From Armatimonadota bacterium (GTDB lineage: Bacteria > Armatimonadota > JAAZEB01): a DNA stretch of 38,939 nt. The stretch is taken from positions 1-38,939 of the forward strand of contig JAAZEB010000282.1 in the NCBI GenBank assembly GCA_012512505.1. The letters are read 5' to 3'. Under the pieces are notes generated by a model. It had not been told where the DNA came from. It worked only from the letters and a program-made list of their open reading frames with translations, and did not search any database. This document shows, in pieces, positions 9,766-29,065 of this stretch (positions are counted from its first letter, which is position 1; each line of letters opens with the position of its first letter). The translations under genes were made by a program, and so were the position numbers.

Positions 9766-10737
9766 CTAGGCGGTCATCTCCAGGTAGCGGCCCATGGAGC
9801 GGAACTTGGCATAGCGCTGCTCCAGGAGGTCAGGGATCGGCACCGAGCGCAGGTCGTCCATGCTCTCGACGATCGCCTGCTTTAGCAACTGGCCGGCGTG
9901 GGCCGGATCGCGGTGTGCGCCGCCACGCGGCTCGGCGATCACGCGGTCGACGACGCCGAGGCGGCGCACGTCGCGCGCGGTGAGCTTCAGGGCACTGGCG
10001 GCCTGGGGCGCCTTGGCCGGGTCGCGCCAGAGGATGGCGGCGCAACCTTCCGGGGGGATCACCGAGTAGATGGCGTGTTCGAGCATGAGGACACGGTCGC
10101 CCACGGCGAGGCCGATGGCGCCGCCGCTGCCACCCTCGCCGGTGATCGCCACCACGATCGGCACTGCCAGGGCGGACATCTCCAGCATGGCGCGGGCAAT
10201 CGCCTCGCTGATGCCGCGCTCCTCGGCGCCGACGCTGCAGTCCGCCGCCGGGGTATCGACGAAGGAGATCACCGGCCGGCCGAGCTTCTCGGCCAGCTTC
10301 ATCAGGCGAATCGCCTTGCGGTACCCCTCCGGGCGCGCGCTCCCAAAGTTGCGCAGGCTGCGCTCCTTGATGTCACGGCCTTTCTGGTGCCCCACCACCA
10401 TCACCGGCTCGCCGTTCAGCAGCGCCGGGCCGCCGACGATGGCGCGGTCATCGGCGCCCAGGCGGTCGCCGTGCAGCTCCATAAAGTCGTCGAACACCAT
10501 GCGGATGAAGTCCAGCGTGTAGGGGCGGGCGGGGTGCCGGGCGAGCTGCACCTTATCCCAGGGGGTAAGCTGTGCGTAGATGCGTTCGGTAACCGCCCTC
10601 AATTGCGACTCCAAAGCAGCGATCTCCTGGCTGCGGTCGATCCCTTGCGCGGCGGTGAAGCGCTTCAGCTCCTGGATCTGCTCTTCGAGCTCGTGAAGGG
10701 GTTTCTCAAAGTCCAACAAATTGCGAATCGTGGGCAC
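9766..10737 (-). CDS. accA: Acetyl-CoA carboxylase carboxyltransferase subunit alpha
   Basis: The 323-residue product is full length for AccA. With AccD it transfers the carboxyl group from biotin carboxyl carrier protein to acetyl-CoA, making malonyl-CoA for fatty acid synthesis in the cytoplasm. The N-terminal helical part (LLDFEKPLHELEEQIQEL) and the crotonase-like core are both present, including FMELHGDRLGADDRAIVGG, GEGGSGGAIGLAVGD and YSVIPPEGCAAILWRD. The start is GTG at 10737, with GAGGAG five bases upstream. It lies 146 bases downstream of accD on the same strand, so the pair should be cotranscribed and made in equal amounts. The subunits for biotin carboxylase and carrier protein are not in this window. 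Confidence 0.97.
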   Translation of the reverse strand: MPTIRNLLDFEKPLHELEEQIQELKRFTAAQGIDRSQEIAALESQLRAVTERIYAQLTPWDKVQLARHPARPYTLDFIRMVFDDFMELHGDRLGADDRAIVGGPALLNGEPVMVVGHQKGRDIKERSLRNFGSARPEGYRKAIRLMKLAEKLGRPVISFVDTPAADCSVGAEERGISEAIARAMLEMSALAVPIVVAITGEGGSGGAIGLAVGDRVLMLEHAIYSVIPPEGCAAILWRDPAKAPQAASALKLTARDVRRLGVVDRVIAEPRGGAHRDPAHAGQLLKQAIVESMDDLRSVPIPDLLEQRYAKFRSMGRYLEMTA

Positions 10738-13132: not shown

Positions 13133-13181
13133 GTGTCAGGTGTTAGGTGTCAGGTGTTAGGTGTCAGGCGCCGGGCGCCGA
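13133..13181. repeat. Heptanucleotide tandem repeat, 7 units
   Basis: Five units alternate GTGTCAG and GTGTTAG (13133-13167), followed by two degenerate units GCGCCGG and GCGCCGA (13168-13181). The period is exactly 7. It begins five bases after the pheA stop codon and ends three bases before a dispersed structured repeat. Confidence 0.85.
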
Positions 13182-13184
13182 TTC

Positions 13185-13370
13185 GGGGCGCCGTAAACGA
13201 CGCCCCTGCCCCTGGGGACAAGCACCCTGCAGGACGCTCCGGAGCGGCGCATTGCGCCCTCAACCGCATTCCAGAGTCGGTGCGAGGGCGCGTCGTGCCC
13301 ACAATCGTGTTTCGGAGCCGGCTTTAGACGGCTTGCCCCTTCCGCAGGGTAGTCGTTTACGGCTACCCTG
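13185..13370 (+). repeat. Dispersed structured repeat, copy 1
   Basis: This 186-base element shares its order of conserved blocks with 28936-29065, in the same orientation. The left end is a hairpin, GGGGCG...CGCCCC, around the loop CCGTAAACGA. The right end is a hairpin, CAGGGTAG...CTACCCTG, around the loop TCGTTTACGG. The two 10-base loops are perfect reverse complements. A third hairpin, AGCCG...CGGCT with GCTTTAGA between, lies before the right end. Conserved blocks GGGACAAGC and AGGACGCTCCGGAGC follow the left hairpin. About 56 bases in the middle have no match in copy 2. It lies between the convergent pheA and corC-type genes. It could be a non-autonomous mobile element or a structured RNA. 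Confidence 0.85.
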
Positions 13371-28935: not shown

Positions 28936-29065
28936 GGGGCGCCGTAAACGACGCCCCTGGCGATAGGGACAAGCGCCCTGAAGGACGCTCCGGAGCTGAG
29001 TTTGGCCACGTTCAGCCGGCTTTAGTCGGCTTGCCCCTTGGACAGGGTGGTCGTTTAGGCCACCC
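28936..29065 (+). repeat. Dispersed structured repeat, copy 2
   Basis: This 130-base element shares blocks with 13185-13370 in the same order and orientation. The first 24 bases are identical, including the loop CCGTAAACGA. The blocks GGGACAAGC and AGGACGCTCCGGAGC are kept, as is the hairpin AGCCG...CGGCT around GCTTTAGT. The right hairpin is GGGTGG/CCACCC with loop TCGTTTAGG, which keeps 7 complementary bases to the left loop. The variable middle is shorter than in copy 1. A direct repeat of TATGGGGCGCCG lies at its left edge. It ends 15 bases from the secA stop. Confidence 0.85.

Follow-up and report, generated by a model that had tools for sequence, protein, structure and literature searches.

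A dispersed palindromic element with two-hairpin arms and REPIN-like features in an Armatimonadota genome

We describe a dispersed palindromic element of an Armatimonadota bacterium that is likely a non-autonomous mobile element of single-stranded DNA, similar in its action to a REPIN. It is most likely an unusual variant of the REP and REPIN elements in which each arm holds two hairpins, and this arm structure is what is new. REPINs are inverted REP doublets (Bertels and Rainey, PMC3116915), and they provide the mode of action proposed here. We call the element REPIN-like in action, and not a proven REPIN, because no Y1 transposase gene flanked by the same element was found with PF01797, NF033573 and a G002 protein query in an assembly that is 96.9% complete.

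In the proposed mechanism, the element would consist of two inverted REPs, each of them compound and made of two hairpins, and each arm would fold when the DNA is single-stranded. We infer that a Y1 (HuH) single-strand transposase moved the family; it would recognize the hairpin on the strand that carries a TTNA loop and would cut near the CA at the hairpin foot. Reinsertion would leave no target-site duplication and may prefer targets with a heptamer on the left side.

Copies and anatomy of the element

The window is the whole stretch of DNA that was analysed, a contig of 38,939 nt (JAAZEB010000282.1 of assembly GCA_012512505.1, Armatimonadota bacterium; contig C192 of genome G000 in our labelling), and it contains two copies (Table 1). 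A sequence-only reading of the window had placed them at 13185-13370 and 28936-29065; both are present, the first ending at 13368, with the blocks in the order described there and with both inner complementary pairs, GGGGACAAGC with GCTTGCCCC (one bulge) and ACCCTG with CAGGGT. Its impression that the pattern exceeds chance agrees with the fold of copy 1, for which z is -5.3 (RNA) and -4.7 (DNA) and which none of 200 shuffles reached.

The further copies that the same reading had proposed to look for are numerous in the G000 assembly (5.66 Mb in 396 contigs). BLAST with copy 1 against its own genome gave 64 aligned pieces at E <= 1e-3, many of which pair up as the left and right arm of a single copy, and a covariance model built from 25 copies gave 97 matches at E <= 0.01. 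Because a palindromic element scores on both strands at many places, we estimate the family at roughly 50 distinct places, partial ones included, which is fewer than the number of matches. The copies are diverged: their left arms share a mean pairwise identity of 85%, and no two of them are identical. Exact-pattern scans of public genome contigs, with the window's own genome excluded, returned one match, in an unrelated Bacilli MAG and without hairpin context, which we take as chance; a scan of viral contigs returned no match.

The element is an imperfect palindrome with two inverted arms of two hairpins each, arranged as H1-spacer-H2 ... H3-spacer-H4. Across 25 aligned copies, the consensus left arm consists of H1 (GGGGCGC-CG-TAAA-CG-ACGCCCC), the spacer TGnCCCnnGGGACAA and H2 (GCGCCC-TGAA-GGACGC), and the consensus right arm of H3 (GCCGGC-TTTA-GTCGGC), the spacer TTGtCCCnnGGnCA and H4 (GGGTAGTCG-TTTA-CGGCTACCC). 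The right arm is an inverted, diverged counterpart of the left, as copy 1 matches its own reverse complement at 65% identity over almost the full length. This self-match and the 25-copy alignment correspond to the two inverted palindromes with variable spacer that characterize REPINs. The true end loops are 4 nt long, as the CG...CG flanking the TAAA/TTTA core pair with each other.

Table 1. Parts of the two copies in the window and of the adjoining heptamer array
Feature	Positions	Strand	Basis
Tandem heptamer array (GGTGTCA/GGTGTTA)n, left of copy 1	13133..13168	+	seen in sequence
H1 of copy 1, GGGGCGCCG-TAAA-CGACGCCCC; TTNA on minus strand	13185..13206	+	sequence, 25-copy alignment, covariation
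Left spacer of copy 1, TGCCCCTGGGGACAA; TG at H1 foot (CA on minus strand)	13207..13221	+	T 24/25, G 24/25
H2 of copy 1, GCACCCTGCAGGACGC; consensus as in text	13222..13237	+	alignment, consensus fold energy
Variable centre of copy 1	13238..13316	+	length varies, poor alignment between copies
H3 of copy 1, GCCGGC-TTTA-GACGGC	13317..13332	+	sequence, alignment
Right spacer of copy 1, TTGCCCCTTCCGCA; ends in CA at H4 foot	13333..13346	+	C 23/25, A 24/25
H4 of copy 1, GG-GTAG-TCG-TTTA-CGG-CTAC-CC	13347..13368	+	compensatory pair changes
H1 of copy 2	28936..28957	+	sequence, alignment
Left spacer of copy 2, TGGCGATAGGGACAA	28958..28972	+	sequence, alignment
H2 of copy 2, GCGCCC-TGAA-GGACGC	28973..28988	+	sequence, alignment
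H3 of copy 2, GCCGGC-TTTA-GTCGGC	29015..29030	+	sequence, alignment
Right spacer of copy 2, TTGCCCCTTGGACA	29031..29044	+	sequence, alignment
H4 of copy 2, GGGTGGTCGTTTAGGCCACCC; one base lost in loop region	29045..29065	+	sequence, alignment

By inspection, a GT[AG]G foot motif lies within the H4 stem of the right arm in 22 of 25 rows and resembles a double foot. The left arm lacks a canonical unpaired GT[AG]G foot; its H1 has GGCG. For all four consensus hairpins, the predicted folding energy is better on the TTNA strand under both RNA and DNA parameters, and a conserved C-A mismatch becomes a G-T wobble when read on that strand. In one copy, on contig C18 (L002/L063), the H4 loop reads GTAAAC where the other copies have GTTTAC, an inversion that looks like a flip of the hairpin tip.

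Placement among neighbouring genes

Placement was computed for the 30 best copies with a purpose-made gene caller based on codon usage. All 30 are intergenic, in keeping with the extragenic dispersal in many copies that is a feature of REPINs. Their neighbouring genes are codirectional in 18 cases (nine in each of the two arrangements), convergent in seven and divergent in four, and one copy has no right-hand gene; no gene-strand preference is apparent among them. A gene-oriented regulator or terminator is therefore rejected.

It is conceivable that the element is a domesticated repeat, serving as a bidirectional transcription terminator, an mRNA stabilizer or a nucleoid site, and that its mobility is long past. 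REPs are known for such effects (PMC6006769), a gene 3' end lies on at least one side of 26 of the 30 copies, and the copies are diverged, as given above. However, this share of 3' ends is near that of random intergenic placement (about 75% if all arrangements are equally open), four copies have divergent neighbours, and domestication leaves the spread of the copies unexplained. We consider a domesticated repeat unlikely and retain the REPIN-like mobile element as the better account.

Local hairpins and the TTNA loop

The sequence-only reading had noted that the two end loops are exact reverse complements and had suggested a kissing loop. The complementarity is exact in copy 1 (CCGTAAACGA against TCGTTTACGG) but not in copy 2, which has lost one base of the right loop (TCGTTTAGG), and it is exact in 6 of the 25 aligned copies. 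The ten would-be kissing pairs show no both-sided change, and their covariation score is no better than that of shuffles (251/500). Exactly complementary loops in copy 1 would be expected from the inverted-repeat design. With loops that do not covary and exact complementarity in 6/25 copies only, the kissing loop or pseudoknot is rejected.

The two local hairpins, on the other hand, carry the compensatory stem changes that had been named as supporting evidence, with both-sided change in 17 cells where shuffles average 7.9 (0/500), a control from which the relatedness of copies is not removed and with which slid controls agree. These changes come from H4, H1 being little variable. At the innermost H4 pair, 11 copies have G-C and nine have C-G, with no matching change in H1, and at another H4 pair 15 copies have A-U and six have G-C. 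The loop-adjacent bases thus belong to the hairpin stem and not to kissing pairs. Stems kept by compensatory change, a further REPIN feature, are found both in G000 and in the sister genome G002.

These data bear on a second alternative, namely a structured RNA family, either a cis-regulator or a small RNA, with kissing or pseudoknotted end loops. Strong folding, compensatory changes in the stems and some G-U pairs on the plus strand would be in line with it. Against it stand the behaviour of the kissing pairs, the lack of a consistent orientation or gene association, and the mirror-image arms, which give the same signals on opposite strands; an Rfam search at the gathering score gave no match to a known RNA family. 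We hold a structured RNA to be very unlikely. The earlier suggestion of either a structured RNA or a non-autonomous mobile element thus survives in its second half, since the family is dispersed and resembles a mobile element with compensatory stem changes, while the RNA half is disfavoured by the gene-strand, Rfam and mirror-image results.

The loops themselves are strongly constrained. In the H1 loop, T, A and A at the first, third and fourth positions are each present in 25 of 25 copies, and the second position is A in 20, C in four and G in one; on the other strand this is TTNA, in which N alone varies. For the Marinomonas REPtron Mb, SELEX and mutation identified loop positions T12, T13 and A15 as needed and position 14 as free (PMC8266576), so that the same recognition feature, a TTNA loop with a free third base, is present in the H1 loops of the 25 copies. 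The loop rule agrees with a recognition so far shown for one Marinomonas enzyme, and would extend it to another phylum.

Around 40 Y1 genes of the phylum, TTNA also ranks first among the loop classes. There are 31 such hairpins at 10 loci within 1 kb of the genes and five at more than 2 kb at the same 40 loci; as hairpins at one locus are not independent, the safer figure is 10/40 loci, and the loop idea itself had been formed with some of these same loci in view. Hairpins with TRAA or TTYA loops occur at 0.39 per kb near Y1 genes versus 0.016 per kb far from them. Under the strict TTNA rule, no nearby hairpin was found at 30 of the 40 loci. Hairpins with any loop are near 25 of 29 genes for enzymes of the Y...Q type versus 10 of 12 others, which gives no separation. 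Y1 genes of other families at L133, L148 and L140 are bracketed by hairpin pairs with other loops, for example GCCGGGGCTATAAAAGCCCCGGC and AAGTGCCCCTTCGGGCACTC; these loci are further REP-like families in the phylum.

Insertion, transposases and related families

Target-site duplications, which the first reading had raised as a possible sign of mobility, were not found: a direct end repeat of 4 bases or longer occurs in 1 of 29 copies, compared with a mean of 1.1 after shuffling. Y1 (IS200/IS605-type) transposition would be expected to leave none, unlike most DDE elements. A third alternative is a MITE that descends from a DDE transposon and has long terminal inverted repeats, to which the inverted arms, the many non-coding copies and the intergenic placement would be suited. 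It is rejected for want of that duplication and is very unlikely, as what is conserved is hairpin loops and pairing within arms, arm sequence is unrelated between sister genera, and the related family of the sister genome G001 brackets a Y1 gene.

Arrays of (GGTGNNA)n adjoin the left side of 18 of the 30 best copies in constant orientation and the right side of none. The array pattern has 363 hits in the genome, compared with none for a reversed control, and many of these have no element nearby; with or without an array, a GGYGYCR-GGTnC-like sequence often stands before H1. We infer that a one-sided target motif of this kind, the left heptamer, would be compatible with insertion of the Y1 type, in which the target is not duplicated. 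In Beggiatoaceae, heptamer repeats with a different sequence are known (PMC4679880). In the flanks, GGCTACCC/GGGTAGCC recurs on the right (10 occurrences in 30 copies, for example L068 and L069; none on the left), and GGCGCC recurs on the left (38 versus 7 on the right), and each flank seems to hold partial copies of its own hairpin half.

Searches of the G000 genome with the PF01797 profile (E <= 0.001) and with a G002 protein as query gave no Y1 gene. NF033573 gave one weak match, on contig C120 (E 0.46). The gene concerned encodes a REP-associated tyrosine transposase (NF047646, E 2.7e-16; L191 1375-1991, corresponding to about 5.0-5.6 kb of C120), whose frame is broken at a tandem duplication with two identical 38-base copies 71 bases apart. 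Its flanks on both sides hold arrays of another REP family, CGGAGTG followed by GCCGCAGCCATGCGGC (GCCGCA..TGCGGC). Owing to flanks that belong to a different REP family, we do not accept this transposase as the mover of the TTNA element. This other REP family also occurs at a few further loci (L034, L045 and L015).

The element's own enzyme is lost, unassembled or undetected. With no cognate enzyme found in the assembly, we regard the family as a probable relic, unless the enzyme is encoded in a part of the genome that was not assembled. This suggests that sizeable REP families can persist without a detectable cognate transposase, which bears on the survival time of such elements in its absence.

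In our collection, the genus is represented by this genome only and the family by two other genomes, G001 and G002. The G001 family has 42 scored matches among those listed, and 178 candidates at first look. Full copies at C105:9906 and C105:10740 bracket a G001 Y1 gene (C105, 10279-10620), with a partial copy at 10052, and in each arm a spacer of type TGCnnnnnnGCAAAG separates two hairpins. Because the G001 hairpins at the Y1 gene have a 3-nt GGA loop, the TTNA rule is not universal. Comparison of copy divergence between G001 and G000 draws on only four aligned G001 copies.

The G002 family (39 matches) shares the four-hairpin plan of the G000 and G001 families, with TGAA/TCAA loops on the left and TTCA/TTGA on the right; the loop class of the G000 element thereby recurs. 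Over 30 stem pairs, 98.6% of cells are paired, with 10 both-sided cells (0/500 shuffles). The G000 covariance model gave three weak matches in G002 (L092, L093 and L094), of which L092 and L094 belong to G002's own hairpin family. GT[AG]G was not seen in the hairpins of G001 and G002. Between the three genera the stems are unrelated, while the order of the hairpins is kept, as is the CA foot (TG on the opposite strand). The three-genus comparison separates the features that the enzyme likely reads, namely loop, foot and spacing, from stem sequence, which it likely ignores.

Among known systems, REPINs share with the G000 element the inverted doublet of palindromes, extragenic location, many copies, compensatory changes and two alternative folds, either one long hairpin or separate hairpins. 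The G000 element differs in its arms of two hairpins with a conserved spacer, in a left arm without the GT[AG]G foot and in having no linked transposase found in the genome; usual REPs are simpler and shorter than its arms. The hairpin of the group 3 REPtron Mb of Marinomonas (PMC8266576) likewise has a TTTA loop, with T, T and A required and the third base free, and it has CA/CT cleavage sites beside the hairpin, where G000 has a conserved CA. REPMb, however, has a short stem of 5 bp and a GTAG that lies two bases upstream of it, in contrast to the 6-9 bp stems of the two-hairpin G000 arms.

Class 3 TnpA-Y1 proteins (Quentin et al. 2018, PMC6006769) are about 155 residues long, have a Y...Q motif and are associated with atypical high-copy flanking hairpins (about 600 in Solibacter). 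In size and motif, the Y1 genes of G001 and G002 resemble this class, and NCBIfam calls their enzymes IS200/IS605; the class 3 foot is CnGA, whereas the foot on the TTNA strand of G000 ends in CA. The TIR families, or TIRYTs (Di Nocera et al. 2013, PMC3733652), are inverted repeats, some of them self-complementary, that lie beside Y1 transposase genes and are dispersed as dimers. Their consensus GGGGWSAS resembles GGGGACAA of the G000 element, but the likeness is one short motif that is not kept in the sister genera, and G000 has no linked Y1 gene.

We tentatively suggest, as a possibility somewhat short of even, that these families may form a distinct class of REP defined by shape and not by sequence. 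Such a class would have two-hairpin arms, TTNA loops, a CA foot and small IS200-like Y1 enzymes; its stems would turn over completely between sister genera, and it would insert beside the GGTGNNA heptamer, with arrays marking the left end only.

In another genome, G032, two ORFs (L152 4748-5584 and L156 5463-6422) seemingly encode two Y1 domains per chain. The N-terminal half has no visible HuH and keeps Y..Q, and the C-terminal half keeps HuH, the C-terminal tyrosine of L152 being doubtful. Such an ORF could encode a dimer in a single chain whose two halves form one composite active site. Upstream of these ORFs there are arrays of TTCA hairpins, and downstream there are TGAA hairpins.
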